Source: Streptomyces sp. NBC_00440
GTDB lineage: Bacteria; Actinomycetota; Actinomycetes; Streptomycetales; Streptomycetaceae
Assembly (NCBI RefSeq): GCF_036014215.1
Contig: NZ_CP107921.1
Span: 4,274,001 to 4,338,000, forward strand
Direction of reading: 5' to 3'
Length of the DNA: 64,000 bases
Both the position numbers and the translations under genes were made by a program. The notes under the pieces are model-generated. The model made no database searches and was not told the origin of the DNA. It saw nothing but the letters and a program-made list of their open reading frames with translations. Positions 28,296 to 44,653 of this stretch are shown in pieces; position 1 is the first letter of the stretch, and each line of letters opens with the position of its first letter.

Positions 28296-28302
28296 AGGTA
28301 GT

Positions 28303-28351
28303 GCCAGCGGCCAGCGGCCAGCGGCCAGCGGCCAGCGGCCAGCGGCCAGCG
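28303..28351 (+). repeat. Seven-copy 7-bp tandem repeat (GCCAGCG)
   Basis: Seven perfect tandem copies of GCCAGCG begin 7 bp after the lipoprotein stop codon; an eighth is degenerate. It is non-coding, likely length-variable. Confidence 0.9.
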
Positions 28352-28355
28352 GCAA

Positions 28356-29245: not shown

Positions 29246-29323
29246 GACGCAGGTCTCATGATGTGCGTGCAGCAAACGGGACCGCTTTCCCGTCGAGGAG
29301 GGGTGACAGGAAGGGATGGGGAT

Positions 29324-29896
29324 GTGGACCTGGCAACCGAGCACGATGTCCGTATCGGAATCAGCAAGTCCGGACCGGCGGAGTCGCAGTACGACTTCCA
29401 CGGCTTTGTCGTCGCCCGGTCGGCCGTACTGTTCCGAGGTGCCCTCGTCCTGACGGGGAATCACGAGGCCGCGGAGGACCTGGTCCAGGAGACCCTGGAG
29501 CGGGCCTGCCGCAAGTGGCGCACCATCGCCGCCAAGGACTCTCCGGAGGCGTACGTGCGGCGGATCATGGTGAACCTGGCCAACGACCGGTGGCGGAGGT
29601 TCCGCCGCATGGTCCCGCATCAGGACGGCGACCGTGCCGCCCCCGGGGACCAGTACGGGCGAGTGGACACGAGGGACCAGTTGGTCCGGGCGCTCCAGGG
29701 TCTGCCGATGCGCATGCGGACGGTCGTGGTGCTGCGGTATTTCCATGAGTTGTCGGATGACGAGATAGCGGCTGACCTGAAGATCTCGCCAGGCACCGTG
29801 CGGTCCCAGCTCGCTCGCGGTATGGACAAGCTCAGAGGCCAGTTCCCCGCACTCTCCAGCCCTTCAACACCGCAGCCGACGGAGGGAGTCCAATGA
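29324..29896 (+). CDS. ECF RNA polymerase sigma factor (SigE/SACE-like)
   Basis: 190 residues from GTG 29324, chosen for the GGAAGGGATGGGG site; GTG 29303 is possible but its GGAGG is too close. Region 2 is FHGFVVARSAVLFRGALVLTGNHEAAEDLVQETLERACRKW and region 4 is RALQGLPMRMRTVVVLRYFHELSDDEIAADLKISPGTVRSQLARGMDKLR. This is the SigE-like family common in Streptomyces, often paired with a one-TM protein. The following gene overlaps its stop by 4 bp. An IS256 relic lies directly upstream and may have supplied or displaced the promoter. Confidence 0.88.
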   Translation: MDLATEHDVRIGISKSGPAESQYDFHGFVVARSAVLFRGALVLTGNHEAAEDLVQETLERACRKWRTIAAKDSPEAYVRRIMVNLANDRWRRFRRMVPHQDGDRAAPGDQYGRVDTRDQLVRALQGLPMRMRTVVVLRYFHELSDDEIAADLKISPGTVRSQLARGMDKLRGQFPALSSPSTPQPTEGVQ

Positions 29897-30393
29897 GTTC
29901 ACACGATTCGCCGCCGTCCGGCTGCACATCCTTCGAGATGGAACTGGTGAATGCCATGAACGACTTCGTGAACACCACCCCGACGCCGCACTTCGATACG
30001 GCCACCATCGCGCGCGGGGCTCGTCGCAAGCGGGCCACGGCCATCGCGGGCATCGCCACCGCCCTCGTCGTGGCCGGTGCGGGCACCGCCCTGGCGGTCG
30101 GCGCCGTCGGCAGCGGTTCGGACACCGCGCGGCCGGCCGCCGCTGCCGCCGCCGACAGCACCACCTTGCTTGTCCGCACCAGCGACGGCGGGACCGCCAC
30201 GGAGCGGCTGGCCGGCGTGAGTTCGGCGAGGGCCAGGGTGTCGCTCGTCCACTTCGGCCTCACACCCAAGTTCACCCGGGTCCAGAAGGCCGACTGCACG
30301 AAGCCGGAGGACGCAGTGGTCTCGCTCTCGCCGCATGCCCCGACGGTCGTGCACGCGGGCGACACGGTCCTCGTAACCACCTGCTACCGCTGA
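29893..30393 (+). CDS. Single-TM membrane protein, putative sigma-factor partner
   Basis: 166 residues from ATG 29893, overlapping the sigma stop (ATGA). A cytoplasmic N-terminus of about 50 residues is followed by one span (ATAIAGIATALVVAGAGTALAVG) and an exported C-terminal domain. That domain ends with SPHAPTVVHAGDTVLVTTCY, vaguely PASTA-like. There is no HxxxCxxC zinc motif, so it is not a classic ZAS anti-sigma factor. Position and coupling suggest it binds or senses for the sigma factor; this is inference. Confidence 0.75.
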   Translation: MSSHDSPPSGCTSFEMELVNAMNDFVNTTPTPHFDTATIARGARRKRATAIAGIATALVVAGAGTALAVGAVGSGSDTARPAAAAAADSTTLLVRTSDGGTATERLAGVSSARARVSLVHFGLTPKFTRVQKADCTKPEDAVVSLSPHAPTVVHAGDTVLVTTCYR

Positions 30394-30447
30394 CCCCGGC
30401 GGAACCGGCCTGACCGAGCCGGGCCGACCGGACAGAGGCAGGACAGA

Positions 30448-30482
30448 GGGTGGTGGCCCCGTCGGAACCGGGGCCACCACCC
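30448..30482 (+). terminator. Hairpin terminator after the sigma operon
   Basis: A 14-bp stem (GGGTGGTGGCCCCG / CGGGGCCACCACCC) with a 7-nt loop lies 55 bp downstream of the membrane partner gene. Confidence 0.85.
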
Positions 30483-30666
30483 CCCTGCATTCCACCACGC
30501 GTCGCCCCTGGGACGGAGTGCGTCAGCATCGAGGTGGAAGGACCGGACGCGTTCGGGGGCCAGGTCCAGCGCGCCCGAGGCGAGGGGCCGGCCTCCGTGC
30601 GATCACCAGTCTTCATGCGGAGCCTCCAACTCCTGGAGCCGTCCCCGATTTTGTCGGCACGCGTGT

Positions 30667-30858
30667 ACTAACGCTTTTCGGGCCGGCCGTCGTACTCCTC
30701 GCGGGTGGTGCGGACATCCTCGATGTGCTGCACGGACCACTCCGTGAGCGCTTTCAGGGAGCCTCGCAGCGTCTGGCCGAGCGGCGGCGTCGGGGCGTAC
30801 TCCACGCGGATCGGCGCCTCCGGGTACACCGTTCGCAGGATCACGGGCTCAGATCGTG
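30667..30858 (-). pseudogene. HxlR-family regulator remnant (C-terminal part)
   Basis: On the minus strand the frame ending at TAG 30667 reads RTVYPEAPIRVEYAPTPP then LGQTLRGSLKALTEWSVQHI. These are the C-terminal wing and last helices of HxlR-type winged-helix regulators (usual form VPPRVEYSLT..GRSL..VL..L..W). No start or recognition helix exists upstream before 30860, so it is 5'-truncated. It lies just outside the outermost tRNA-Gly repeat. Confidence 0.65.
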
Positions 30859-30973
30859 CGGCTCCTGTTCGTACTCCGCGATGTCCATGGCCCCAGCAGA
30901 GTTGGGGCTTGCGGCACTAAGCGCTGCCAGGCATCGAGCAACCTGGCCCCTTGAGCGGTCTGGACGACAGAGA

Positions 30974-30998
30974 AGCCCCAGGGCGCTGACCTGGGGCT
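30974..30998 (-). terminator. Hairpin beside the outer att repeat
   Basis: A 9-bp stem, AGCCCCAGG/CCTGGGGCT, with a 7-nt loop sits directly beside the 31005 repeat. It occupies the same position as the terminator downstream of the intact tRNA-Gly gene, suggesting that both were captured together. Confidence 0.7.
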
Positions 30999-31004
30999 AA
31001 GTAA

Positions 31005-31048
31005 GGGAGTGAGTGACGGCAATCGAACCCGCGCTCTGAGCTTGGGAA
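31005..31048 (-). repeat. att-like copy of the tRNA-Gly(CCC) 3' end (outermost)
   Basis: 44 nt match the 3' part of the tRNA-Gly gene at 44580-44623 with three mismatches. It covers the T arm, 3' acceptor strand and part of the anticodon arm, and stops at the same point (GGGAA) as the copy at 33323. It is the distal attachment-site scar of the outer element. Confidence 0.85.
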
Positions 31049-31306
31049 TCACCGGCCCTTTGCTTGCACCGGCAAGCTGACCAGGAGGAGACAGATGCCA
31101 GGGTGAACCCTAAGGGCTCACCCTGGCACCCGTGGGTCCCCGCCCAGTCGGGCACGGACATTTCTGATCCGTAGATCTAGCCGGATCGGTCGGGGATGGC
31201 TATTTCGGCTGCTACCGAGCCCTGGAGGGGCACTACCGGACGCGGGCGATTGCCGGGGTTGTGGTATCTGGCTGCTGTACCGCAGGATCCAGACGGGGGT
31301 GTGACC

Positions 31307-31666
31307 ATGGAACGGCATGAGCTCGAATCGCTGTTGGTCGGTGATGACGAGGCGTCAACGATAGCTCTTGCCACCCTCCGCAGCGGCGCCACCTACTGGG
31401 TGGGAGACCGAGCACAACACGCAGGCCAGCATGCCGGAGTCTTCAAGGGCCGACTTCAGCGCATGCGGAAACACGGACTCGAACCTCTTTGGCTGGAACG
31501 AGCAGTTCAGCTCGTCCGCGAGCATGGCCGGCCAGTGCGCACAGGGCTGATCGATTCTGCCGATCGGGCATGGACCACGCTGTTCTTCCTCACCGAGGAC
31601 GGCAGCGCACTAGTGGCCTGCGCCGGCTGGCCGCTGCCACTGGTTGCCAGAGAGCCACCGCTTTAG
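31307..31666 (+). CDS. Hypothetical protein in element A
   Basis: 119 residues from ATG 31307. No family is recognised. It begins MERHELESLLVGDD and continues with a mixed alpha/beta composition (LKVWERAVQ-like helices, AWTTLFFLTEDGSALVAC strands). G/C content is lower than in flanking chromosome, in keeping with mobile DNA. Ribosome site is weak. Confidence 0.5.
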   Translation: MERHELESLLVGDDEASTIALATLRSGATYWVGDRAQHAGQHAGVFKGRLQRMRKHGLEPLWLERAVQLVREHGRPVRTGLIDSADRAWTTLFFLTEDGSALVACAGWPLPLVAREPPL

Positions 31667-31899
31667 CAGCGGGGTGGGGTGAGTTGGGGGCTGACCTGCG
31701 GATGCCTACTTCGGCGTCCACTGGCTATGGCCGTTGCTGATCGCTACGGTTTCCCGCGAGTTCCCGCCCGATATGGCGCGGTTGTGGCACAGGGACTTCT
31801 GCGATCCGAAGTTATCCCAGTCTCGGGGAATGGCCTTCGTGTGCCCGTGCGAGCCGAGACCCTGTACTCGGCAAGTCACTCAACCGTTCTGGGGGATGT

Positions 31900-32496
31900 A
31901 TGTCTGGCAACGTTCTATCCGAAGCAGCGCTAGCTGTGTCGATTGTGGCATTCGGGCTGTCGTTGGTCGCCACGCTGGCTCAGAGGCGGAGGGCCAACAT
32001 GGAGATTGCTCGTGCACTCCACGTTGACTTGACCTCGGGTGTTGTGGCGGAAGCGCGCAGGCCCCTTGGTGAACTCGCGTTCGCAGTCAGAAGTGACTGG
32101 GAAGCCGAGGATGACGCGAACCCTGAGCAGGTGCTGATCCGGAGCGGTGTGGACGCGGCGGAGTTGCGACATCACTACTTCGTCTTGCTGTGGTGCTTCG
32201 AGCGAATTTGGCATGGTTACCAGGTGATTAACCGCGACCGTGTGCTTGGCCTCGGGGCAGACAAAGAGTTCGCGAGCATGCTGGGGTGGCATGTGCGGAA
32301 CTGGTCCGAAGACTTGCCCGCGATCAAGCAGGCCCTGGAGACGAAAGTGGGCAAGATCCATGACGGCGACTCTGCTCGGGCGCTTGCTGAGCTGGGGGAC
32401 GCAGTGTTGACAGATGCGGACATCAGAATGATGCGAAGCAGGCTGGGACAGATGAGTTTGCAGCCCATAGGCGGACCTGCGTGGTGGCATGGGTAG
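31900..32496 (+). CDS. Hypothetical protein with N-terminal membrane span
   Basis: 198 residues from ATG 31900. One hydrophobic segment (AALAVSIVAFGLSLVATLA) at residues 8-26 is followed by a basic patch and a helical cytoplasmic domain (HHYFVLLWCFERIWHGYQVI). Small one-TM proteins of this layout are common cargo in actinobacterial islands. Function unknown. G/C content is low for this genome. Confidence 0.6.
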   Translation: MSGNVLSEAALAVSIVAFGLSLVATLAQRRRANMEIARALHVDLTSGVVAEARRPLGELAFAVRSDWEAEDDANPEQVLIRSGVDAAELRHHYFVLLWCFERIWHGYQVINRDRVLGLGADKEFASMLGWHVRNWSEDLPAIKQALETKVGKIHDGDSARALAELGDAVLTDADIRMMRSRLGQMSLQPIGGPAWWHG

Positions 32497-32500
32497 AGCA

Positions 32501-33259
32501 GGCGCTGAGCCCACCACCGTACGAACGACCTTGACGCCCTGGGCGCGGCTGCTCGGCTTTGCCTGGGTCGGAGGTGGTCGGGATGGAAGCCTTCACCACG
32601 CTCGCCACGACATACCGGCACTCGCGGACGCGGCTCCCCTCGTTGCTCAGGTAGACGGCTTTGGCGAACGAGCTGGGCCCCGTTGGCGGCTGATGGTCTT
32701 CCTCGGTGCCTATGGACCGATGCGGCCAGAGGAACAAGCGGAACTGCGTCGCAAGGATGTGGACGTGGATGGAGTAGCCATCCGTATTCGTTTGGCTGCG
32801 CCTGAGCTGACCACAGGGCACCGTGCGCTTGGGGGCACCAAGTCGCAAGCGGGTAAGCGCCTCGTGGTGCTGCGGCGGCATCTCGACTGGTACGCCGAGA
32901 AAGGACCGGACGGGCTGCTGTTCGTCGGGGAGAAGGACAAGCCGTTCCGGCGCTCCACCTTCGGGCGGAAGCGGCGCAAGGCGCGTGCTCATGTTGGTCT
33001 CCCGGACGATTTCCGGTTCTACGATCTGCGTCATACCGGGCACACTCTGACGACCCGATCGGGTGCCACGCTGAAGGACACGATGGCGCGTGCCGGTCAG
33101 TCCTCGGAACGGGCCGCGCTGATCTATCAGCACTCCGACCAGGAGCGGCAGAAAGAGGTGGCCTCGGGCCTGGACTCGATGGTCAGGCGGGAACGCCAGA
33201 AGGGCGCTACCGGTACCGAGGATCATCGATCGGGCACGCAACGGGCACGAGAGTCTTAG
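32501..33259 (+). pseudogene. Truncated tyrosine recombinase (integrase)
   Basis: The C-terminal catalytic domain is well preserved, about residues 60-250: GAYGPMRPEEQAELRR with the first Arg, GTKSQAGKR with the beta-hairpin Lys, FYDLRHTGHTL and RAGQSSERAALIYQHSD with the Tyr nucleophile. The FYDLRH variant is usual in Streptomyces element integrases. The N-terminal core-binding and arm-binding domains are missing, and no credible start is seen. The 3' end is 64 bp from the inner att repeat, the normal integrase position. The left boundary given is approximate. Confidence 0.75.
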
Positions 33260-33322
33260 ACTGGTCTGGACAACACAAAGGCCCGGGCTGGGGATCACGT
33301 CCCTGACCTGGGCCTTGGCTGG

Positions 33323-33366
33323 TGGAGCGAGTGACGGGAATCGAACCCGCGCTCTGAGCTTGGGAA
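33323..33366 (-). repeat. att-like copy of the tRNA-Gly(CCC) 3' end (inner)
   Basis: 44 nt identical to the tRNA-Gly gene segment 44580-44623, including the CCA end, the T arm and the end point at GGGAA. An AAGGCCC...GGGCCTT hairpin lies at 33278-33316, matching the tRNA terminator position. It is the shared border of the two stacked elements. Confidence 0.92.
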
Positions 33367-33845
33367 TCACCCGGGGCTTGAGCCGGGTCGTGTCCGCTGA
33401 CCTGCGGAAACAGTCGCGGGGCGGTGCTTTTTAAAGGCCCGCCGGGCACCTTAGTGACCGCTGTTTACCGCCCCTCCTGGCACGTTATGGCACGCGGCGC
33501 GGCATCGCGTGCGTGTCATGTGGTGAGGCGTGGCAACCCGCCATCGGCTCCCGGCGAGTGAATTACCGGCGAACCGCCGGAGTTCCTCGCCGCGGCCCTG
33601 CTGACCGGAGTACGGAAGCTTCCGCTCAGCCTTGACCGTTGACTGACCGAGGTGTTCCGTGCCACGAGGCGCGAAGCCACAAGGCTGCTGTGATCACGCA
33701 TGGAGCAGGGGGGTGGATGTGATCTTCGCCAGCGATGTGTACGAGAAGAGTCGTCCGTGACTGATGATATGTACATCGCATGATGAGTCAGTGGCCCGGC
33801 GCCTGATCAGAAGGGTGGGCCGCTGACAAGCGCTGGGACAGAATA
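33367..33845. other. Non-coding left end of island B
   Basis: 479 bp with no supportable gene. Small open frames on both strands lack ribosome sites and coding bias. Composition is mixed and lower in G/C than the core genes. Confidence 0.4.
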
Positions 33846-34367
33846 TCAGTCGTCCAGTATCTGCCTGCAAAGTTGCGTGAAGGCGTCCAGTGCCTCATAG
33901 CTGCTTTCCTTGTGTCGCAACACCTCCGGTATGCCCACTGACATGTGGGCTGTGCGCATATATTGGCCCTCATTTGTAGCGATGGCGAGGGATAAGCTGT
34001 TCGCCCACACTCGCACGGCTCCTACGAGTTCCAGTGCTGCGGAATCGGATCTTGCTGGCCCTTCCAAAGCAACCAGACTCATCGGAGCGTCCAGCTTGGG
34101 TGCTAGCTCGCAGAACTGTTCCATAAGATCGCTAGCATTCGGCTCATCGTCTTCGTAGGCGTCCGTGGCTCTGCTGCCTACCCTGATCGCCTCAGAGGTT
34201 TGGCTCACAAGTTGGCTGTAGGCATCACGGCGCTGCTGACGACGCCAGTGCTCGTGCTGACTCTGCCGTTGTTCCCTACCTGCGAGCCGTGTAGACCCCA
34301 AGGTGCCCACGACACCGATGAGGCCGCCCACAAGTACACCTACTAAGCCCGCTGTGCCTTGGTCCAT
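33846..34367 (-). CDS. Hypothetical one-TM protein
   Basis: 173 residues from ATG 34367. The N-terminus has one glycine-rich span (AGLVGVLVGGLIGVVGTLGS) followed by a basic helix, REQRQSQHEHWRRQQRRDAY. The rest is a helical cytoplasmic domain. The layout resembles many small phage/island proteins of unknown role. The coding G/C content is notably low. No good ribosome site is visible. Confidence 0.6.
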   Translation of the reverse strand: MDQGTAGLVGVLVGGLIGVVGTLGSTRLAGREQRQSQHEHWRRQQRRDAYSQLVSQTSEAIRVGSRATDAYEDDEPNASDLMEQFCELAPKLDAPMSLVALEGPARSDSAALELVGAVRVWANSLSLAIATNEGQYMRTAHMSVGIPEVLRHKESSYEALDAFTQLCRQILDD

Positions 34368-34485
34368 GGCGCCAGTAAAGATGAGTTCATCGGCCTGCGG
34401 GTGCCCTTCGGGGCATAGGTGAGGGTGGCGGGCCGATGCTTGATGAACTTGCGGTGCCCCCCCTTTGGTCCCGTCCGCGGGCGAC

Positions 34486-34519
34486 AGAGGGCACGTACTG
34501 TCTCCAGTACGTGCCCTCT
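34486..34519. terminator. Intrinsic-terminator-like hairpin
   Basis: A perfect 15-bp stem, AGAGGGCACGTACTG/CAGTACGTGCCCTCT, with a TCTC loop, followed on the plus strand by a T-rich run. No gene reads into it; it sits beside a tRNA T-arm-like sequence at 34548-34570, as a captured tRNA terminator would. Confidence 0.75.
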
Positions 34520-34573
34520 GGTTTGCTATTTTACAGCTGTCAGAGTCGCGGGATTTGAACCTAAACCTCTTCG

Positions 34574-34810
34574 TCCCGAATGAGGTTCGAGTAAGATTGA
34601 TGCCTGCCAATTTTGCAAATTTGCAGGCCAGGGGGATTGTCTGAGTTGGTGCGGCGGTGCCTCGATCGGACTTCGAAGGGAGAACATCTCCCAGATTTCT
34701 CCCAGGCGTGGAGGGCTGCTGCATTCTGGGTGCGTCTTGGCAACGATTGCTGGCGCGAGTTTGCAGGTTCTGTCGGGTTCACGTTGGGAGATCGGGGAAC
34801 ACCGGTGCGG
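34574..34810. other. Non-coding stretch downstream of the unknown operon
   Basis: About 237 bp with no gene that can be supported. It separates the operon ending at 34811 from the tRNA-like scar. Confidence 0.35.
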
Positions 34811-35011
34811 TCATGGTGGCTCGGTTGCCTCTGTGGAGTCCTCCGGGAGATGGCCGTACAGGCGGTACCCCATCTCGTCAGGGTGCCGAGTGACGCGGGC
34901 CAGCCGCCAGGCTGCCTCGTACGACATACGTCCGTGGTTCTGGGTATGGAGCCGCACCGCCAGCAGGCTGGTGACCGGGTCGAGAAACCAGCGCAGGAGC
35001 ATCACCTTCAC
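34811..35011 (-). CDS. Small protein, last gene of the unknown operon
   Basis: 66 residues from GTG 35011, whose GTGA overlaps the stop of the SPFH-like gene by 4 bp. It is Arg/Leu-rich with LLRWFLDPVTSLLAVRLH, then MSYEAAWRLARVTRHPDEMGYRLYGHL. No family is recognised. The overlap and matching orientation are the main support. Confidence 0.55.
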   Translation of the reverse strand: MKVMLLRWFLDPVTSLLAVRLHTQNHGRMSYEAAWRLARVTRHPDEMGYRLYGHLPEDSTEATEPP

Positions 35012-35787
35012 TGGAACTCGCCGGCTATGGCGGTGAGGGCGCGGGAGGCGTCCTCACCGCCGAATGCCTCTACGGTGCCTGCGAGTAGGACGAGTAGTTC
35101 CTTGCATCCTTCGGGGGTCAACTTGCTGACGAAATCGTGTATCACCTGAGCGACAACGACCCACCGCTGTCCGGGCTGCCACTGTCTGACTGTGCGGACC
35201 AGATCTTCGAGATCCGTACCGGCTGGCGGTCCGCCGAGGCGGGGCCAGTTCTCGGCTGAGCCTTCCAGAGCGGTGTAGAGCCGGGCGGCGGCGGGGCTGG
35301 CGAGGATGTGATCTCGCAGGAAGTCCTCGCGTGCTTTGGCCTGGCGACGGGCCAGCTCGTCCAGCTCTAGTTCGCGGCGCAGCAGCTCTTCCTGACGACG
35401 GTGGTTCTGCTGCAGCTGTTCCGCGGCGAACGCGGCCTTCCGGGTTGATTCGTCCACTTCGATGCTCACGGTGGCGCCCACGACGATTACGCCCACGCCT
35501 CCGAGGGGCAGGGCTTCGGCGAGTGCGGTGCCAATGTCCTGCTCGGCGGCGTCAGGACGGAGGACATCGCAGGCGGCGGCCGCCTCATCGATCACGGCTC
35601 TGACGAGCTGCCCGACTGCGTACGGGGACCCAGGGATGTGGGTGTCGTCCTGGCGCCGCCAGGTCGCTCGGACATGTGCGCAGAAGTGGAGCGTTGGGTC
35701 CGCGCTACGTGGCCGGTCTGAGAAAGTGGAGACCCAGGTGGCGCCGCCCGGCTGGGAGGCGCCTTTGGGGGTGGGGCGGCGCTTCAT
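35008..35787 (-). CDS. SPFH/band-7-like coiled-coil protein
   Basis: 259 residues from ATG 35787, overlapping the stop of the ATPase-like gene by 4 bp. Residues 20-115 resemble a band-7/SPFH fold (LHFCAHVRATWR, ATVSIEVDESTRKAA). A charged coiled coil follows (QQNHRRQEELLRRELELDELARRQAKAREDFLRDHIL), then a helical C-terminus. SPFH proteins form membrane-linked ring or cage scaffolds, but no membrane span is obvious here. It may scaffold the ATPase-like protein encoded just upstream. The assignment is tentative. Confidence 0.6.
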   Translation of the reverse strand: MKRRPTPKGASQPGGATWVSTFSDRPRSADPTLHFCAHVRATWRRQDDTHIPGSPYAVGQLVRAVIDEAAAACDVLRPDAAEQDIGTALAEALPLGGVGVIVVGATVSIEVDESTRKAAFAAEQLQQNHRRQEELLRRELELDELARRQAKAREDFLRDHILASPAAARLYTALEGSAENWPRLGGPPAGTDLEDLVRTVRQWQPGQRWVVVAQVIHDFVSKLTPEGCKELLVLLAGTVEAFGGEDASRALTAIAGEFQ

Positions 35788-38360
35788 GCGGCCTCGTGCT
35801 CCTCTGACTTGTCTGCCTCGGGGTGTTCCTGCAGCAGAAGCTTCTGGACCTTGGCCAGATCGGCGTCGAGGAGGGAGGAGAGTTCGAGCTTCAGGTTTGC
35901 CCGGTCGGGCGAATACGGGCGGTTTTCACCCTGGACCCACACTTGTGAGCAGGTACGCAGGGCCTCACGCAGGGTCGGGCCTTCAGGGCCGCGGACGTCC
36001 ACGGCCCGCCGAAGGGTGTCGAGGACGATCTGCCGTAGAGGGGGTCGCTCAAGGGCCGCATCGAGCCACAGGAAGATGGCCCGGTCGAGTTCGCGATCCC
36101 CCGCTGCTCCGGTCGCCTGACGCAGGAGAGTGCGCCACCCGGTGACAAGGCCGGCGATTGGAGGGCGGAAGTCTTCCTCTTCGTCGGTGTCCGGGCTGGT
36201 GTCACTGTGGAGCACCAGCGGCACTCGGTCGGCTTCTGGTGCAGACGACGCGGCGAGAGCCGTGAACGTTCGGTGGCCGACAGTGTCCCGGATCTTCTCG
36301 TCACCGCACCAATCGACGACGTACCCGAAGAGCGTCTTCCGGATGGAGGTGTCCGCCCACAGCACCCGGATCGCTTCGCGCAGGCTGTCCACGACCTCCG
36401 TCAGCCCGCTGTTGGCCACGTTCTTGAGACGGCGTAGCGCCTTCCCAGTGTGACGCCGCCCGAACTGTCCGGTGCAGACCTCGACGACCGCCTGTTGGAG
36501 TGAGGGCTCTTTGCGCTTGGCCCATGACAGCAACAGGGAGTGCACGTACGGAGCGCTGGCTGCGTGAATCGCTGCGTTGTCGAGCAACTTGACAGCCAAG
36601 GGCCACAACTCCTTGTCCGTGCCGTGGGCGTACCAAGCCGTGACGATCTCCTCTAATGGTTCTTGTCTGCGATGGCGCACGGCCCAGCGCAGCGCGAACT
36701 CACTGATGCGGCCTGCCAAGGCACGGCGGGCGTCCTTGGTGATGGTCTCCAGGGCCTCCTTGTTCGTTCCTGTGTCGTCGAAGGGGACCTGGGCGAGCCA
36801 CTTCAAGAAGGAGGTGCGGGCCAGCGGGCGATCGTTCCAGAAGTACTCGATCGCGGCGTCGTCCCAGTGCGCGCGGTTGAAATGGAGGGTCCCGTCTTCC
36901 TCGCGCCGCGCATCGATGGCCTTGGTCATGGCGATCACCCCCGGAGCCTGTTGCCCGTGGACGGGGACAGGGGTGTCGCGTTTGTCGAGGGTGTCGGTCA
37001 ATTCGGCGGCTTTGGCATACACATGGCCCACCGGGTCGCCGCGCAGGACCGCTGCGGTCAGGAGGAAGTTCCGTTCGAAGCTGGTCCGGACGCGGTTTTC
37101 TGGTTCGTGCCACTCGTAGAGGGCGTCCTCCCAGTTGCTGAGGACGGCCTCGACATTGGCGATCTGTTCGTCGAGGGAGCGGCGCCGCTCGGCAGAAGCC
37201 TGCTGCGCCGAATCGCGGGCTACGTCAGAGACGTCATCGGCCGCGAGGCGCTCGGCCTTCCGGTGCTCATCGAGCATGAGGGGAGTGACGTTCAAGATGT
37301 CCGTGGGAGTCATGCCGCCGATGAGGCGGCGTATGCCGGTGCTGCCGAGCCAGGCACTGACCGGGAACGCTGGCTCCTGTGCCAGCAGCCAGCGTGTGGC
37401 GATGTCGTGGGGGTGGATCTCGCCCAGATCCGGCGCGGCACTCGGCGGTGCACCGTGGCTGATTCGTCGCCACTGTTCCGGGCGGGTCAGGACGATGAGT
37501 CGGTTGTCCCGTCGGGCCAGCTGCTCACCGAGCTTTCCCAGGCCGGAACCGAATGTGTCGGCTACCTGGAAGCCGTCTTCGTCTGGCGGGAGTTCGAGCA
37601 GGAAGCCGCATCGGCGGTCATGAGGCAGGCGTCGCGCGGGGAAGTGCTGGGAGCCGCCGAAGGAGAGTGGGCGTGCTTCTGTGATCAAGCCTTCTTCCAC
37701 GAGCTGGTCGAGAAGGGAGTATGCAGTCGTGGTTCTGCTGCTGTTCGGCGGGCGGTTGATAACCAGTACGGAACCCGAAGGCCGGAGGCTCTCAAGGGCC
37801 TGGGTGAAGGGGCTACTGGTCCGGTCTGTGTCCTCGGAGCGGGGCTTGGCATAAACCCTCCGGATCACTGCCAAGTATTCGGCGTCGATGGGCGCGTCTG
37901 CGTCCAGGGTCTGCTCGAACACGTATTTCGTGCCGATCATCTCGCCCAGGTTGATTAACGCGCGCTGGAGCGTGGCCGCCTGCCCGACGGCTTCGATCGC
38001 CTCGGGGGACGGTGGTGGCGTCCTGCCCTGCTCAGTTTCTCGCTGTGCTGCGGGTTCAGGGCTGTTCGGTGGGATGGCAGGGGCAGGGGGATACGACGGG
38101 AGCGCGGGTCCTGACTCTGAGCTCGCCGGCGCGGTCACTTCGGGGCGAGCGCGCGCTGCAGACTCGGTATTGGTCTCTGAGACTGCCGCGGGCGCGTCGG
38201 CGGAGGCGGCGGGGCCCTCCGTATGGTCGGTCTGGTCTTCGTTGCAGTACCGGTCGAGTAGCCGTGGAGGCACGCGCGAATCTTCGGCAGCGCTGTACGG
38301 GTTCCCGGTCGCCGGAACGGACTGCTGCCGGGCGAAGTCCTGCTCGTTGTCTAGGGTCAT
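35784..38360 (-). CDS. Large protein with degenerate P-loop ATPase domain and helical repeats
   Basis: 858 residues from ATG 38360. Residues 1-125 are acidic, Pro/Ala-rich and probably disordered. Residues 140-340 look like a P-loop domain: SVLVINRPPNSSRTTTAYSL (about 197-216) sits where Walker A should be but lacks the Gly-Lys, GFLLELPPDE may be Walker B and RLIVLTRPEQW a sensor strand. The remaining 500 residues are helical, HEAT/TPR-like. The shape recalls STAND-type or effector NTPases of bacterial conflict systems with altered nucleotide binding. It is second in an operon of four. Confidence 0.6.
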   Translation of the reverse strand: MTLDNEQDFARQQSVPATGNPYSAAEDSRVPPRLLDRYCNEDQTDHTEGPAASADAPAAVSETNTESAARARPEVTAPASSESGPALPSYPPAPAIPPNSPEPAAQRETEQGRTPPPSPEAIEAVGQAATLQRALINLGEMIGTKYVFEQTLDADAPIDAEYLAVIRRVYAKPRSEDTDRTSSPFTQALESLRPSGSVLVINRPPNSSRTTTAYSLLDQLVEEGLITEARPLSFGGSQHFPARRLPHDRRCGFLLELPPDEDGFQVADTFGSGLGKLGEQLARRDNRLIVLTRPEQWRRISHGAPPSAAPDLGEIHPHDIATRWLLAQEPAFPVSAWLGSTGIRRLIGGMTPTDILNVTPLMLDEHRKAERLAADDVSDVARDSAQQASAERRRSLDEQIANVEAVLSNWEDALYEWHEPENRVRTSFERNFLLTAAVLRGDPVGHVYAKAAELTDTLDKRDTPVPVHGQQAPGVIAMTKAIDARREEDGTLHFNRAHWDDAAIEYFWNDRPLARTSFLKWLAQVPFDDTGTNKEALETITKDARRALAGRISEFALRWAVRHRRQEPLEEIVTAWYAHGTDKELWPLAVKLLDNAAIHAASAPYVHSLLLSWAKRKEPSLQQAVVEVCTGQFGRRHTGKALRRLKNVANSGLTEVVDSLREAIRVLWADTSIRKTLFGYVVDWCGDEKIRDTVGHRTFTALAASSAPEADRVPLVLHSDTSPDTDEEEDFRPPIAGLVTGWRTLLRQATGAAGDRELDRAIFLWLDAALERPPLRQIVLDTLRRAVDVRGPEGPTLREALRTCSQVWVQGENRPYSPDRANLKLELSSLLDADLAKVQKLLLQEHPEADKSEEHEAA

Positions 38361-38375
38361 CGGTTGCGCCGCCTC

Positions 38376-38903
38376 TCAGCCGATGGTTCCGTCGATCTCG
38401 ACGCCGACTTGTTCCGCCGCCGCCTCAATGACCCTCGCGGACTGGTCCACGCGCACGCGGCCCGTCCTGGAAATGTCCTGTGCGCGTACACCGACCTGGC
38501 TGCCGGTGAGCTGTTCCGCGCGCTGCGTGACGGAGACGCCGGGGCGCGAGGGCCGCTCCTCCTCGTCGCCGAAGGGCAGTTGCCGCCCGTAGATCTCCTC
38601 CAAGTCCAGGCGGAGTGCACCCAGTAGATCCCTGAGCCCCGGACCGTCTGCCTGCATCAGCGCCGGACGTGTCAGATACACCTGGAGTGCGCCGCGGGCC
38701 TCGGTGATGCGCTCGATCCGTGCAGAGGAAAGTTCAGCCGGTCGGACGGTCAACGGACCTACCTGGCCTTCGACGTGCTCCGGTTCCTCCACGGGAACCC
38801 GACCCGCACGTCGATCGAGGACCGCTCCGGCTCGGTCGAACAGGAACTTGACCGCCTCAGTGAGTGCGGTGCCGGCAAGCATGGGAAACGTCAGTGGATC
38901 CAC
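38376..38903 (-). CDS. Hypothetical protein, first gene of the unknown operon
   Basis: 175 residues from ATG 38903. The N-terminus MDPLTFPMLAGTALTEAVKFLFDRAGAVLDRR is an amphipathic or weakly hydrophobic helix that could bind a membrane or a partner. The middle has VGPLTVRPAELSSARIERI and an acidic loop. A C-terminal segment, RVRVDQSARVIEAAAEQVGVEIDG, follows. No family is recognised. It lies 15 bp upstream of the ATPase-like gene. Confidence 0.6.
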   Translation of the reverse strand: MDPLTFPMLAGTALTEAVKFLFDRAGAVLDRRAGRVPVEEPEHVEGQVGPLTVRPAELSSARIERITEARGALQVYLTRPALMQADGPGLRDLLGALRLDLEEIYGRQLPFGDEEERPSRPGVSVTQRAEQLTGSQVGVRAQDISRTGRVRVDQSARVIEAAAEQVGVEIDGTIG

Positions 38904-39842
38904 GGATGTGCCCTCCCCGTTGATTGCGCGTCCCGCTGTGTACGCGGGCGCAAAACCTGACTGACGGTACGGTTGCTGTCACTCAGAGAGAAGGGCTGTT
39001 CCGGTCGCTCACGGTGATGTCCCGAATGCGCCTGGCGTTCATGTGTGCGATGCCCTTGACGTGGGCGTGGTTCGATAGTGCTCGGCCGATATGCATATGG
39101 CAGACGCACTTCCGGCCGGAATCATGTGGAATGGCCCGCACGCGAGCTGCTTGGCGTGGCCGAAACGCAGAAAAGGAGCGTCCTTCACCTACATCGGCAG
39201 CAGCAGCTCAGAGATCAGAGAGGAGCTGTACAGCGAGTGCCGCGAAGCTGTCCAAGGGCATCGGGAAGGTCTTCGACGCGATGCTCTCCTGCCCCTCCTA
39301 CCAGGTGACATTGGGCAGCACTGTCATCGACATGGGCACTCAGGAGTCGGCCGCGCCGAACTCGGCGACGGGCAGTGGAGCCAACTGCTCGCCTTCTCCG
39401 CAGGCGGGTGGCGCAGCGTCGTCAAGCAGACGGCGATCCGCGCCGGCAGCATCCTGGTGGTCGTCTATGGTGCTCCTGGCCTGGTTGAGACCCATCTGGC
39501 GAAGGCTGTCGACAAGGCTCACCCCACAAGGTGCGCATGCCCGCCATGCCACCTTCGCGTCAGTCGCAGGCCAGTCCGTGGAAGGTATTGCGGATGTCCG
39601 TCAGAGGTTGGCGGTCGCGGGTGTAGTAGAGCTTGTTGGTCAGGAGCACCGCCCGTCGCCGTTGACGCGGCGAGATCCACATGCCGCCGCGCCCGGCATC
39701 GCCCCCGCCGATGACGTCTGAGTCCACTACGGCTTCACCGGCACCTCGGGCTACGGGGCGCAGGTGTTCGTCGGCCCTGCGGCAGCGCTGCATGGGTAAC
39801 CCATCCGTACAGGGCGTTGCGCGGCGCATTACCCTGCCGAGC
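38904..39842. other. Gene-poor, scrambled segment
   Basis: About 940 bp between the divergent unknown operon and HAD gene. Overlapping open frames in several phases (39091-39714 plus, 38924-39721 plus) disagree and lack ribosome sites. Scattered runs such as RSVVKQTAIRAGSILVVVYGAP read like decayed coding sequence. The stretch also contains the hydrolase-like fragment annotated separately. Confidence 0.4.
39563..39722 (-). pseudogene. Possible serine-hydrolase C-terminal fragment
   Basis: The minus strand reads MWISPRQRRRAVLLTNKLYY followed by TRDRQPLTDIRNTFHGLACD and a stop. This is similar in wording to the C-terminal end of beta-lactamase-like serine hydrolases (...GTSLWIDP...VLLTNRV...). 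The upstream catalytic region is absent. Weak, by-eye evidence. Confidence 0.35.
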
Positions 39843-40502
39843 ATGATTCGCGCTGTGGTGTTCGATGTCGGTGAGTGCCTTGTGGACGAGACCCGTGAGT
39901 ATGGGACCTGGGCGGACTGGCTGGGAGTGCCGCGGCATACTTTCGCGGCGATGTTCGGGGCGGTCGTCGCGCAGGGGCGGGATTACCGTGAGACGTTCCA
40001 GGAGTTCCGGCCGGGGTTCGACCTGGCCGAGGAGCGGGACAGGCGAGCCGAGGCCGGCAAGCCGGAGTGGTTCGGCGAGGACGACCTCTATCCCGATGTG
40101 CGGCCGACCCTGGCTGGGCTGCGCGAGGCCGGTCTCTGGGTCGGCATCGCCGGCAATCAGACCGTGCGGGCCGGCGGTCTGTTGCGTGGGCTGGATCTGC
40201 CGTCCGATCTCATCGCTACCAGCGACGACTGGGGTGCGTCGAAGCCTGATGTGAAGTTCTTCGAGCATGTCATCGAGGCGACGCCTGCCGAGCCGGGCGA
40301 GATTCTGTACGTCGGCGACCGGCTCGACAACGACATTCGCCCGGCCGTGCAGGCCGGGCTGCTGACAGCGCTGATCCGTCGGGGCCCCTGGGGCACGATC
40401 CAGCAGCGTGATCCGGAGGCCGACGCGATCACCACGATGCGGATCGACTCGCTGGCGGAGCTGCCGGGGAGGATCGCCAGGTTCAACGCTGGAGAGCGCT
40501 GA
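39843..40502 (+). CDS. HAD-superfamily hydrolase
   Basis: 219 residues from ATG 39843. HAD motifs in order: I VVFDVGECLVDET with nucleophile Asp8, II IAGNQT, III SKPDVKFF with Lys, IV YVGDRLDNDI. The second Asp of motif I is replaced by Gly10, as in some dehalogenase/epoxide-hydrolase-like HAD members, so phosphatase activity is uncertain. A small helical cap lies between motifs I and II. Cytoplasmic. Its 3' end overlaps the convergent XRE-TPR gene by 20 bp. Confidence 0.85.
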   Translation: MIRAVVFDVGECLVDETREYGTWADWLGVPRHTFAAMFGAVVAQGRDYRETFQEFRPGFDLAEERDRRAEAGKPEWFGEDDLYPDVRPTLAGLREAGLWVGIAGNQTVRAGGLLRGLDLPSDLIATSDDWGASKPDVKFFEHVIEATPAEPGEILYVGDRLDNDIRPAVQAGLLTALIRRGPWGTIQQRDPEADAITTMRIDSLAELPGRIARFNAGER

Positions 40503-41757
40503 CCGTCGTCCCCCAGTCGTAGAGCCGGTCGTCGAAGTCCCGGACACACTGCTCGTTCTGCCACGGAGCGAGCGTGCGCCGCACTTCGCGTACGCGGTCC
40601 ATGCCTGTGGCGTACCAGGTGGCGGCGAGCTGGTCGAGGGCCTGGCCGGCGTAGTGGCATGCCTCCTGCGGATTGCCGTCGGCTGCTGCCACCGCGGCCA
40701 GGTCTCCGAGGACGACGGTGCGTTGCTTGGCGGACTCGGGCGGCAGGTCTTCGAGGACCTGCTGAAGGGTCTCGCGGGCCTGAGGGATGCGACCCGCTTT
40801 GAGCTGAGTGTTGCCCTTGAAGGCCGCCAGGCGGGCGGAGCCGAACCAGTCCATCCACACGGGAGTGGTGTGCTCGGAACCGGCGGTGAGGATGTCTTCG
40901 GCGTGGCTGATGAGGTTCAGGGCGGTGCGGGTGTTGCCGCAGCGGGTCTCGCACTCGGCTTCGACGGCGTCCAGCCAGGCGTGGAACTCGGCAGACGCGG
41001 GGCCGCGGCGGGCGTAGGTGCGGGCCGCCACCATCCGCTCCACTGCCGCCTCGCGTTCGCCTGCCCAGCCCGGGATGAAGGCCGTATGCGCGAGGATCGC
41101 GGATCCCAGAAGCGGATCATCCGCCTCGCCGGCGGCCTGGAGAGCGCGGAGCAACGTGTCACCGGCCTGGTCGGGTTGGCGGAGGTCGAAGAACTCAATG
41201 CGGCCTGCCAGCAGGTAGGACTCGGCGAGTGCGGCTGCGAGCCGGTGCCGGGCCGGTTCGACCGTCTCGGGCAGAAGCGCGCAGCCCAGCCGCGCGTGCT
41301 CCAGAACCGCGGGGTGGAGAGTGGCCGGCGCGACCGACCAGTACAGGTACCGATGGGAACGGGTCACGGCTTCGAAGTTGGCTCCGACGCTGATCGGTTG
41401 TGTGATTGCGACGGATTGGGTGGGCACCGTGGCCAGGCGCGTGCCGGGCATGGAACGGGCCGTCGAGGTTGGGCGGGTCTGACCACCCGAATGTTGTCCT
41501 GAGCCCCAGGGAGCGGTGAAGCCGAGATCTTCGGCCTCCTGACCCAGCAGATGGGTGAGCACGCGACGGATGTCCGGCTGGGGCCACGGCGGATTGTCGG
41601 ACTCCCACCGCCGGACCTGGCGGACACCAACGGCCAGTCCCCGGATGCCGAGCTGCGGTGCGTCGCTCGTGATGGCGTCCGCGAGGGCCTGCTGCGAGTT
41701 GTAGCCAGCCGCCACCCGGGCGGCTTTGAGGCGAGTGTTGCCTATGGGACGGGACAT
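40483..41757 (-). CDS. XRE-family regulator with tetratricopeptide-like C-terminus
   Basis: 424 residues from ATG 41757, directly after GGAGGAGTC. Residues 8-75 form a Cro/CI-type HTH region (TRLKAARVAAGYNSQQALADAI, VRQVRRWESDNPPWPQPD). Residues 150-415 are helical TPR-like repeats (LLAGRIEFFDLRQPDQAGDTLLRALQ, AGRIPQARETLQQVLEDLPP). Such proteins bind peptides or small proteins through the TPR part. It is divergent from the radical SAM gene set, and the shared region carries a 13-bp inverted repeat, so it is the probable regulator. Confidence 0.82.
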   Translation of the reverse strand: MSRPIGNTRLKAARVAAGYNSQQALADAITSDAPQLGIRGLAVGVRQVRRWESDNPPWPQPDIRRVLTHLLGQEAEDLGFTAPWGSGQHSGGQTRPTSTARSMPGTRLATVPTQSVAITQPISVGANFEAVTRSHRYLYWSVAPATLHPAVLEHARLGCALLPETVEPARHRLAAALAESYLLAGRIEFFDLRQPDQAGDTLLRALQAAGEADDPLLGSAILAHTAFIPGWAGEREAAVERMVAARTYARRGPASAEFHAWLDAVEAECETRCGNTRTALNLISHAEDILTAGSEHTTPVWMDWFGSARLAAFKGNTQLKAGRIPQARETLQQVLEDLPPESAKQRTVVLGDLAAVAAADGNPQEACHYAGQALDQLAATWYATGMDRVREVRRTLAPWQNEQCVRDFDDRLYDWGTTVSALQR

Positions 41758-41959
41758 GACTCCTCCGTGGTATCGGAACCTCACCTGAGGCTCTCACGCT
41801 ACGTCCCCTTCGCGGCACCAACTCATCAACCAGGTGAATGGAAGCCCTCTTGGAGTCCTCTGAGTGACCCTTTGAAGTCCTCGAAGGGGACGTAAGGTCT
41901 CGCGAGGATGACACCTCCGCACATTCAAGCCTCAGTGCTCAGTGAGGAGTTGTCCCTTC
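41758..41959. promoter_or_regulatory. Divergent control region with 13-bp inverted repeat
   Basis: A 13-bp perfect inverted repeat, TACGTCCCCTTCG at 41800-41812 and CGAAGGGGACGTA at 41882-41894, flanks about 69 bp. Two further related half-sites, AGTCCTCTGAG and AGTCCTCGAAG, lie at about 41851 and 41875. It is a good candidate operator for the XRE-TPR protein acting on both directions. Confidence 0.6.
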
Positions 41960-42367
41960 GTGTCACAAGAGACCCCGGAACCACCCACGATGCGCACGGT
42001 AGGAAGCTGCGAGATCCAGGGCGCCGGATTCCGCTGGGACGCCGTACGCGTGCCTCGAAGCCTCGGGGCGCGTGTGCTGGTCGCTCTCGGTTCTCGTAGC
42101 GGTGCTGTGATCGAAGATCCGCGTGAACCGGCCCTCTACTGGTTCGTACGGACGGGCACCGCGGCCGTCTGGGACGTGCCTGACACGCGACCACTCGGCC
42201 TGTCCCAGCACCTTGTCGTCCCTCCACCGCATCGCATGCGCGGGCCTGGTCCCCACTGGCGGATCTGTCCCGAGAACGGCCAGATGTTGACGGACGCCCA
42301 GGTCCTTCACGCGGCAGTCGAAGGCGTGACAGCTCCTCTCCGAGCACCAGTTACGGAGACGACATGA
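41960..42367 (+). CDS. Hypothetical protein upstream of the radical SAM gene
   Basis: 135 residues from GTG 41960 (GAGGAG 10 nt upstream); starts at 41942 or 41990 are possible. A compact alpha/beta protein with DAVRVPRSLGARVLVALG, GAVIEDPREPALYWFVRTGTAA and WDVPDTRPL, similar in style to a small conserved Streptomyces family I cannot name. Its stop overlaps the next start (ATGA). Confidence 0.65.
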   Translation: MSQETPEPPTMRTVGSCEIQGAGFRWDAVRVPRSLGARVLVALGSRSGAVIEDPREPALYWFVRTGTAAVWDVPDTRPLGLSQHLVVPPPHRMRGPGPHWRICPENGQMLTDAQVLHAAVEGVTAPLRAPVTETT

Positions 42368-42588
42368 CCACTTCCCTGCACTCGGGCCCCTCACGGCAGC
42401 GATTCGGCGCGTCGGCCGCGGCCCCACCTGCAGGCCGTGACCTCCTCGGCATGGTTCTCGGCGTCATATGGGCCCCCGGCTCGATCGTCGCCGTGTGCGG
42501 GCTTGCCTACCTGACCCAGCACAGCCCGGCGCCGGTGCAGACGGGCAGCGCAGCCGCGTCCGTCCCTGACTCGGCTATCAGTTCCTGA
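42364..42588 (+). CDS. Small one-TM peptide
   Basis: 74 residues from ATG 42364, overlapping the stop of the previous gene (ATGA). A Ser/Ala/Pro-rich N-terminus, one span (LLGMVLGVIWAPGSIVAVCGLAYL) and a short Pro/Ser tail. It sits directly upstream of a radical SAM gene, where precursor peptides are often encoded, but no leader-like or core-like motif is obvious. Confidence 0.6.
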   Translation: MTTSLHSGPSRQRFGASAAAPPAGRDLLGMVLGVIWAPGSIVAVCGLAYLTQHSPAPVQTGSAAASVPDSAISS

Positions 42589-42681
42589 CCCGGTCAGTAC
42601 AGGGGCCAGTCGACCGGGCCCACCTCAGCCAGATCTCTCCCTCCAGGCCACCGGCTTGCCATGCCGAAGGAGCAACGTCAC

Positions 42682-43776
42682 ATGTTCCAGCACCGCGCTT
42701 TACAAAACGTCAGCGATGACGTTCCCATCCATGTCTCGATGGACCGGACACTGCGCGTCAAAGTCATCGACGCATGCGGCATGACGTGCACGTTCTGCCA
42801 TAACGAGGGAACTCCGGTCAGCGCCGACAACCACCCGCGCTGGCCCGAACGTTTCACCCCGACAGGCCCCTCGGGGAGGACCTCCCTTTACGTTGCCACC
42901 AACGGCGCCCGCTTCACCAGCGCCCCCGTCATCCCGGACGAGGCGTTCCGCGCTGCCCTCACTCAACTCCGCGACGCACTGGACTTCGACGAGGTCCACC
43001 TCACCGGCGGGGAACCGACCCTGCACCCCAAGCTGCCGCAGATCGTCGCTCTGGCACGGCAGGCCGGCTACTCGGCCAGTGTCACCTCGAACGGCGAGAA
43101 CGGTGTGAGGTCCTTGCCCGGCTGTGCGGACGCCGGACTTCGGCACGTCAACTTCTCGATCTTCGGCACCACCCCCGACGAGCTCACGCAGGTTCAGAAC
43201 ACACGGTTCAGCGTCCGGGCGCTGGCAACCCGCAAGATCGAAGCGCTGGAGGACTCGATCCGCGTCGCTGTGGCCCTCGGCATCGGAGTGCGGGCAAACG
43301 TCGTCATCCCCGATCACACCCACGTGCAGAGGGTCCACCGGCTGCTGGAGAAGTACTCGCCGAGGCTATCCGTGCGGATACTGACGTCGCTGGCTGATGG
43401 TGATGCGTCTCTTGACGCCGTTGATCTTCTCCTGGCCGAGCTTGGTGCTGTTCCGCAGGAGATCCGGCTGATCGCAGGTACGTCAGGCTTCCGCATCGCC
43501 TATCGGCTTCCGTCAGGCCGGCAGCTCGTGGTGAAGCACATCCGTTCCTTGCGGCTGCCCGATACGTGTGCCGACTGCAGGTTCAACAACAGCGTTGACT
43601 GTCAGGAGGGTTACTACGGGGTTCGGCTCTATCGCGACCCGGACGGCACCTTCCACGTCGGCGTGTGTATTCAGCGCATGGACCTGTGTCTGCCCGTGGA
43701 AGAGTTCGTGGGCAGCGACGCGTGCGCCGAGATCAGGAAGATGCGCGAGCAGGACCTGCACGACCTGACCGCGTAG
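42682..43776 (+). CDS. Radical SAM enzyme (MoaA/SPASM-like)
   Basis: 364 residues from ATG 42682, with AAGGAG 9 nt upstream; ATG 42661 is an alternative. The [4Fe-4S]/SAM motif is C32-GMT-C36-TF-C39, and the GGEP motif follows at 109-112 (LTGGEPTLHP). A C-terminal cluster of four or more Cys (DTCADCRFNNSVDCQ, then VCIQRMDLC) suggests an auxiliary Fe-S cluster as in MoaA and SPASM proteins. The substrate is unknown; partners are the upstream peptide and the downstream CYTH enzyme. Confidence 0.88.
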   Translation: MFQHRALQNVSDDVPIHVSMDRTLRVKVIDACGMTCTFCHNEGTPVSADNHPRWPERFTPTGPSGRTSLYVATNGARFTSAPVIPDEAFRAALTQLRDALDFDEVHLTGGEPTLHPKLPQIVALARQAGYSASVTSNGENGVRSLPGCADAGLRHVNFSIFGTTPDELTQVQNTRFSVRALATRKIEALEDSIRVAVALGIGVRANVVIPDHTHVQRVHRLLEKYSPRLSVRILTSLADGDASLDAVDLLLAELGAVPQEIRLIAGTSGFRIAYRLPSGRQLVVKHIRSLRLPDTCADCRFNNSVDCQEGYYGVRLYRDPDGTFHVGVCIQRMDLCLPVEEFVGSDACAEIRKMREQDLHDLTA

Positions 43777-43805
43777 ATAACGAAACAAACGAGAGCGAGG
43801 ATGCT

Positions 43806-44351
43806 GTGGCCCAGCACGAATACGAAGCCAAGTTCCTGGAGATCGACGTGGACGCGGTACGCGACCACCTGCGATCGGCCGGGGCCGAGCGGGCCTTCGG
43901 CAAGACCATGTTCACCCGTCTGATCTTCGAGAACGACGCCGTCCAGGGCGAGCAGTGGCTGCGCCTGCGGGACGAGGGCGGCAAGACCACCCTCACGCTC
44001 AAGCAGGTCACCGACGCCACCCACATCAACGGCACCACCGAGATCGAGATCGAGGTGAACGACCTGGAGCGGACCACGGAACTCCTCGCGGCCCTGGGCC
44101 TGCGCCAGGTGCGGTACCAGCAGAACTACCGCGAGGAATGGCAGCTCGACGGCGTCACCTACGACTTCGACACCTGGCCGGACCTCCCCACCTTCCTGGA
44201 GATCGAGAGCACCTCCGAAGAGGCCGTACGCAAGGCGGTGGCCTCGCTCGGACTCGACTACACCGAGGCCCGCTTCGGCAGTATCGATCTGATCTACAAG
44301 AGCGAGCGGGACCGGGACATTCTCGCTGAACCCACTCTGCTCTTCGGCTGA
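43806..44351 (+). CDS. CYTH-domain protein (class IV adenylate cyclase/triphosphatase type)
   Basis: 181 residues from GTG 43806. The defining CYTH motif ExExK is E5-Y-E7-A-K9 at the N-terminus, followed by the triphosphate-tunnel strands: WLRLRDEGGKTTLTLKQ, EIEIEVND, RYQQNYREEWQLDGVTYDFDTWPDLPTFLEIE. Family enzymes are class IV adenylate cyclases, thiamine triphosphatases or polyphosphatases. Which of these it is cannot be told. It follows the radical SAM gene by 29 bp and is last in the set before the tRNA. Confidence 0.88.
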   Translation: MAQHEYEAKFLEIDVDAVRDHLRSAGAERAFGKTMFTRLIFENDAVQGEQWLRLRDEGGKTTLTLKQVTDATHINGTTEIEIEVNDLERTTELLAALGLRQVRYQQNYREEWQLDGVTYDFDTWPDLPTFLEIESTSEEAVRKAVASLGLDYTEARFGSIDLIYKSERDRDILAEPTLLFG

Positions 44352-44547
44352 CACCTTGCTCCCTGGCCAGCTGTCGCATCCGGTGCTCGCCTGTGACTCG
44401 CCAGTCGAGCACCGGAACTCGCAACGCTAAGGCCCCGCATTGATCATCGGGAGACGCGCAGTCGCAGTCGGTGCCCCCGACGCGAGCAGGGAGAAGGTTG
44501 TGATCCTCCACGCACGGCCCGTGTCGAAAATGGCCCAGACAACAAAC
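44352..44547. other. Non-coding right end of island B
   Basis: 196 bp between the CYTH gene and the tRNA terminator. An inverted pair GTGCTCGCCTGTGACTCG / CGAGTCGAGCAC-like is visible near 44382-44412. No gene seen. Confidence 0.35.
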
Positions 44548-44574
44548 AAGGCCCTGGTCTCCGACCAGGGCCTT
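44548..44574 (-). terminator. Terminator of tRNA-Gly
   Basis: A perfect 12-bp stem, AAGGCCCTGGTC/GACCAGGGCCTT, with a 3-nt loop. On the minus strand it is followed by TTGTTTGTT, giving a classical intrinsic terminator just past the tRNA CCA end. Confidence 0.9.
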
Positions 44575-44579
44575 CGTCA

Positions 44580-44623
44580 TGGAGCGAGTGACGGGAATCG
44601 AACCCGCGCTCTGAGCTTGGGAA
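44580..44623 (-). repeat. att site inside the tRNA-Gly gene
   Basis: The 44 nt shared, without mismatch, with 33323-33366. Integration restores a complete tRNA gene here and leaves the duplicate on the far side. Confidence 0.9.
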
Positions 44624-44653
44624 GCTCATGTTCTACCATTAAACTACACTCGC
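44580..44653 (-). tRNA. tRNA-Gly (anticodon CCC)
   Basis: Minus-strand sequence folds as a full cloverleaf. The acceptor stem GCGAGTG/CACTCGC is followed by discriminator T and an encoded CCA. The anticodon stem TGAGC/GCTCA holds loop TTCCCAA with anticodon CCC. The T arm is CGGGTTCGATTCCCG. Its 3' 44 nt are the attachment site for the elements to the left. Confidence 0.95.

Follow-up and report, generated by a model that had tools for sequence, protein, structure and literature searches.

The tRNA-Gly(CCC) gene of Streptomyces sp. NBC_00440 occupies positions 44580..44653 (minus strand) of the 64,000-nucleotide stretch analyzed here, referred to below as the window (contig NZ_CP107921.1, positions 4,274,001 to 4,338,000). 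It is the sole tRNA gene in the window and the presumed attB site for integrative elements. The 3' part of the gene, 44 nt running from the anticodon loop to the CCA end, recurs twice to its left, at 33323..33366 without mismatch and at 31005..31048 with three mismatches; all three copies lie in one orientation, on the minus strand. Two segments are delimited in this way: X (31049..33322), a remnant with a truncated integrase that has copy 31005 as its left end, and Y (33367..44579), a composite segment bounded by the perfect 44-nt copy and the tRNA gene. Copy 33323 is at once the right end of X and the left end of Y. An earlier note on this DNA read the three copies as the footprint of two integrative elements stacked by serial insertion at one attB. 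The positions, orientation and mismatch numbers that it gave for the copies agree with ours and with a scan of the 8.68 Mb genome for the last 40 of the 44 nt (plus-strand reading, up to three mismatches), which finds exactly three sites, while the reversed-pattern control finds none. The tRNA-Gly 3' repeat is therefore not a dispersed motif, the possibility that the note had itself raised against its reading. Each copy has a hairpin directly beyond it, at the place of the tRNA terminator, as the note had also seen: beside the intact gene it is terminator-like, at 44548..44574 on the minus strand, with a 12-bp stem read by eye; at copy 31005 the stem is 9 bp long, and at copy 33323 the longest uninterrupted stem is 7 bp, with a fold of -27 kcal/mol.

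The same site was compared in relatives. The genus sample comprises 392 genomes, that of NBC_00440 (G000) included, of which G259 is the closest by a 3-kb query beside the tRNA gene. Fifty-four tRNA-Gly(CCC) loci were compared: the window, 45 of the 60 relatives of a first set, and eight genomes picked by hand from high ranks of the 3-kb query. The DNA read on the tRNA 3' side is mostly 18-19.5 kb per locus (8.8 kb in one, 45-59 kb in four), and counts of displaced copies are lower bounds because these stretches are of limited length. With a threshold of at least 37 of 44 matches to the locus's own tRNA, at least one displaced copy is found in 32 of the 54 loci, the window included, and 53 copies in total: one in 16 loci, two in 13, three in one, four in two and none in 22. 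A partial copy of 31 nt in G259 does not reach this threshold and is left out of the count. Searches of the same 54 loci for the reverse orientation, for the tRNA 5' half in both orientations (threshold 25 of 30) and with shuffled queries yield no match. An all-against-all comparison of 46 of the loci finds the tRNA and the dcd side in most of them; to the left of the tRNA, most 500-bp bins are common to few or no other loci. tRNA-Gly(CCC) is a strongly occupied integration site. It also has the hallmark of an accretion site, at which successive elements stand in tandem and share one attachment site: there are two displaced copies here, and two or more in 16 of the 54 loci.

What the site receives is seen in G036 (locus L043), where genes for a GntR regulator, an FtsK/SpoIIIE-domain protein, RepSA and a full integrase lie between the copies at 9160 and 19439; this is the core gene set of an actinomycete integrative and conjugative element (AICE). 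Between the copies in G023 lie genes for an integrase, a relaxase-domain protein and a DnaB-like protein; set beside the G036 gene set, this relaxase/DnaB-type content suggests that the site takes up elements of at least two kinds. The integrase family represented in X, the single family searched for, lies within 200 bp of eight of the 53 displaced copies, never near full length, and beside 13 of the 54 intact tRNAs, near full length in eight of the 13. The confinement of near-full-length integrases to intact tRNAs fits decay after displacement. The hairpins extend to relatives as well: an uninterrupted stem of at least 8 bp (G-U allowed) accompanies 35 of the 53 displaced copies, as against 21% of 1000 random stretches. 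The hairpin beside displaced copies is thus enriched, yet not universal by this stem measure. Near-identical twins of the 44548-44574 hairpin stand beside displaced copies in G259 (54981) and G100 (14139); the terminator-like flanks otherwise differ among displaced copies, as is expected if each element brings its own.

The recognizable part of X is a tyrosine integrase stretch (32642..33256, plus strand) that is homologous to residues 175-387 of a 387-residue relative, with an internal gap of eight residues. The C-terminal part alone is kept; the N-terminal part is absent from X. The stretch lies inside an open frame, 32489-33259, that ends ~64 bp before copy 33323, the integrase match itself ending 67 bp before it; of the 14 near-full-length relatives in the compared loci, seven end 55-61 bp before the tRNA. 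Parts of X are also present away from tRNA-Gly in G023 and G129. The ~135 bp directly before the integrase break (32507-32641) recur at several other places in relatives with 82-87% identity, and their counterparts in two relatives contain no plausible long frame and look non-coding.

Y is made of two main blocks. The left block (34524..39686) is 95% identical to G023:C1:3489643-3494830. The right block (39762..44414) has two counterparts in G023, at 94% and 95% identity, one of them inside that genome's own tRNA-Gly pile and the second ~80 kb away, with other flanks. Between the blocks lies a rearrangement joint (39687..39745), 59 bp that are inverted relative to G023. G023 also has the right block between a 44-nt copy and the tRNA, and a single element common to Y and G023 was considered for that reason; the left ends and the terminator-like flanks differ, the block has its second counterpart in that genome, and the idea was set aside. 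The left end of Y starts with TCA, as do 31 of the 53 displaced copies. No mobility gene was found in Y, either among the open reading frames (ORFs) scanned, which are a selection, or by the integrase query.

The one unusual feature of the locus lies at the edge of the left block: a degenerate tRNA-Pro(CGG) 3' end (34534..34580, minus strand), identical in 42 of 48 alignment columns, with one gap. The gapped alignment scores 64, against 30 or less for 200 shuffled queries; because of the one-base gap, an ungapped search with the tRNA-Pro 3' end did not clearly single the relic out. A hairpin, read by eye, precedes it. The same boundary in G023 is a tRNA-Pro(CGG) 3' copy, at which the block starts, and this distal copy lies 44.4 kb from the intact tRNA-Pro gene. 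Pairs of exact copies also occur in G259 (22.8 kb apart) and G358 (41.8 kb), beside the 44.4 kb of G023, where the pair presumably bounds an island. None of the other 53 tRNA-Gly loci has a tRNA-Pro 3'-end match. The relic and the G023-like block therefore make Y a composite, part of which stems from a second tRNA site.

Accretion plus decay at the tRNA-Gly(CCC) attachment site is, in our judgment, very probably the history of this locus. The half of the tRNA gene from the anticodon loop to the CCA end would serve as the attachment site of tyrosine-integrase elements, RepSA/FtsK-type AICEs among them; with each integration, the copy carried by the element would restore the tRNA 3' end and the older copy would be pushed outward, and elements would pile up head to tail on the tRNA 3' side. 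At least two such events would still be visible in this genome. X, with its integrase fragment abutting copy 33323, probably entered first, and the boundaries of Y would have formed between X and the tRNA, probably later. X would then have decayed, its integrase losing the N-terminal part and its transfer genes presumably disappearing; Y would have lost its integrase, and would have acquired the tRNA-Pro(CGG) island block together with the att footprint of that site. Both segments are presumably immobile at present. Serial insertion at one attB, the core of the earlier reading, is well supported by the 32 occupied loci with their 53 copies, by the empty controls and by the AICE gene set of G036.

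Several observations nevertheless weigh against this history. No integrase is found in Y, and it is therefore the repeats alone that speak for its entry by integration; its two blocks lie at separate places in G023, so that they may never have moved together as a single unit. Of the 14 near-full-length integrases, the remaining seven stand at distances of 131 bp to 7 kb from the tRNA. Twenty-two of the 54 loci have no extra copy in the stretch read, which does not in itself show these 22 to be empty. The divergence of the repeats gives no order of events. Among the relatives, no true empty site was found that has the left neighbor in common, and consequently insertion is not seen as a clean before/after pair.

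The alternative that survives best accepts X alone as the remnant of an integrative element and has Y enter between existing att copies by homologous recombination or another rearrangement. The lack of a detectable mobility gene, the separate G023 counterparts of the blocks, the 59-bp inversion at their joint and the tRNA-Pro relic inside Y all speak for it; yet the borders of Y, the tRNA on one side and a 44-nt tRNA 3' copy without mismatch on the other, are exactly what an integrated element would leave, the left end of Y has the TCA shared with most displaced copies, and its right flank is terminator-like in the manner of those beside the displaced copies in G259 and G100. We consider such an origin of Y unlikely, if far from fanciful. 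A reversed order, in which X inserted after Y, and into a displaced copy rather than into the tRNA, appears rather improbable: displaced copies could in principle act as attB, and the number of mismatches does not track position, while the X integrase adjoins copy 33323 like that of an element once beside the tRNA, a weak argument since this arrangement fits either order. That the tRNA 3' region was simply duplicated, with no part played by mobile elements, as the limitation of the repeats to tRNA and terminator-like sequence might suggest, is scarcely credible in the face of 53 copies of the 3' part and none of the 5' half in 54 loci, one integrase family beside eight displaced copies and 13 intact tRNAs, and the AICE gene set that two copies enclose in G036.

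If accretion plus decay is taken as the history, its layers are less easily counted and dated than the earlier note supposed. The note had called the outer element older and the inner one younger by repeat identity; in the 16 loci that have at least two displaced copies, the greater divergence falls on the outermost copy in eight and on the innermost in five, with three ties (sign test p = 0.58), and that inference is not supported. The number of mismatches is a poor clock here because the copy that an element brings may already be divergent on arrival. Geometry alone is left to place X before Y. That repeat identity by itself does not order the layers in the sampled loci is a caution for a common inference. 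The count of two elements likewise is not supported, as Y contains the tRNA-Pro(CGG) relic and its tRNA-Pro-linked block, and variable DNA, relative to G259, continues leftward to ~20.1 kb; "element" is also too strong a word for either segment, X having a truncated integrase and Y no mobility gene that could be found.

How far the variable DNA reaches is indicated by G259, which has 93% identity across the 3-kb query next to the tRNA. Its collinear DNA on the left ends near window position 20129, and the variable DNA hence extends to ~20.1 kb: the further stretch left of copy 31005 (20130..31004) is not common with G259 here except for one inverted stretch of 200 bp. Pieces of 25.5-31.0 kb occur within ~10 kb of the same tRNA in G056 and G358, as found in part by a search biased toward tRNA-Gly loci or matches to this DNA; one gene of this part also matches elsewhere in many relatives and in the genome of NBC_00440 itself. 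Together, these sequence comparisons place the outer edge of the variable zone probably beyond copy 31005. The collinear DNA of G023 ends near window position 11715. Stable left neighbors were tried in the search for an empty site (window 8736-11715, the S13 peptidase gene, and 28000-31100) and failed, their matches often lying elsewhere in the relative. The earlier note had allowed that empty-site relatives might carry the same 31-44 kb DNA without the repeats; this was checked as far as possible, and G259 lacks nearly all of that DNA, matching 31049-44530 at E <= 1e-20 in only an integrase stretch and a 124-bp piece.

The tRNA-Pro relic raises the question of how material from another tRNA site came to lie in this pile. 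It is possible, though we put it forward tentatively, that the block was carried with its att footprint from an island like that of the sister species G023 into the tRNA-Gly(CCC) pile, and that cargo moves in this way between tRNA hotspots; the route into Y, and with it the direction of the block's move, can be proposed only conditionally. If the proposal is true, Y is the product of an element that used, or captured DNA from, two attachment specificities, and islands at different tRNAs exchange modules rather than evolve separately. The relic itself shows that DNA from two tRNA sites can come together at a single one.

Compared with known classes of element, X and Y retain the boundaries of AICEs and little of their machinery. 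The tRNA 3'-end direct repeats at both ends that are usual for tyrosine-integrase AICEs are present (copies 31005, 33323 and 44580). A complete integrase is not, X having only residues 175-387 of 387, and in a Pfam scan of 18 ORFs of X and Y, a selection of the six-frame ORFs, neither a RepSA-type replication initiator nor an FtsK/TraB transfer protein was matched, although the same library finds both RepSA and FtsK in G036. Att-like repeats around cargo, with no complete recombination or transfer gene among the selected ORFs, are the makeup of a decayed AICE remnant or of something resembling a cis-mobilizable element (CIME). CIMEs are att-flanked segments without recombination or transfer genes. 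Y has the CIME layout (att-like repeats, cargo and no integrase found) and differs in looking composite. Defective AICEs (DAICEs) are described in a passage of PMC9513070 as having a signature traB gene; none was found in the 18 ORFs of X and Y.

Accretion plus decay at a tRNA gene is an already known process, of which this locus is a new instance with the tRNA-Pro relic as its unusual part. PMC9513070 describes AICE accretion at tRNA-Arg in a Streptomyces population, where a tandem row of several elements plus a remnant lacking traB lies between direct repeats; at another target gene, decayed sites are left with part of an integrase, cargo and a pair of repeats. Cis mobilization is mentioned there as well. 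The window is like that tRNA-Arg case, as described there, in its tandem layers and remnant between direct repeats at one tRNA gene; it differs in its target, tRNA-Gly(CCC), in the reduction of both visible segments to remnants, and in the att relic of a second tRNA that one of them contains. The tandem AICEs Fean5518/Fean5534 (tRNA-Lys) and Sav3708/Sav3728 (tRNA-Arg), of which a passage in PMC3218068 reports the Frankia pair to excise, share with the window a head-to-tail layout at one tRNA gene; in contrast to these, no complete recombination module was found in the window's segments. A gene cluster of Frankia CcI3 flanked by tRNA-Gly direct repeats, according to a passage of PMC4117964, offers another actinobacterial tRNA-Gly gene with direct repeats around a variable cluster, in another genus; a tRNA-Thr hotspot figures in part of PMC6722414. 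No report of this Streptomyces tRNA-Gly site was found in the literature searched, mostly by listing and without supplements; a term for the site is absent from the main texts of PMC3218068 and PMC9513070, whose supplementary site tables lay outside the search and may list it. With the site so often occupied in the sampled species, displaced tRNA copies constitute a readable record of past element traffic.

The cargo of Y includes two overlapping genes in the left block, both on the minus strand, for proteins of unassigned function: one of 858 residues (35784..38360), with 67 database homologues besides itself, the named ones mainly from Streptomyces, and one of 259 residues (35008..35787) that overlaps it by 4 bp. 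The predicted model of the 858-residue protein is weak (mean pLDDT, the predicted local distance difference test, 68), with a possible NTPase-like part and helical repeats. It matches NLRP9 and EfAvs5 weakly (template modeling, TM, score about 0.15), and by this model the protein may bear a faint resemblance to STAND-type NTPases. The right block contains HAD hydrolase, NsdA-family regulator, radical SAM and CYTH genes. PADLOC gives one notable match in Y, of the radical SAM protein to pVip (E 4e-14), and a defense system was considered on this account and rejected: the protein is closer to the MoaA model (lower E-value, NCBIfam), and both MoaA and viperin fall below the NCBIfam cut-offs. Parts of the right block match in 139 of the 392 genus genomes, the own genome included (E <= 1e-50); among the matches listed other than G000 and G023, its left and right parts match separately.

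Two further groups of genes lie to the left. P450, ketoacyl synthase, reductase, MMPL and aldehyde dehydrogenase genes at 11760-20140 look like a small biosynthetic cluster, which is shared with G259 and was not found at this place in G023. Within the variable zone, at 21047-22000, an APH-family phosphotransferase gene stands beside a gene for a nucleotidyltransferase-domain protein.

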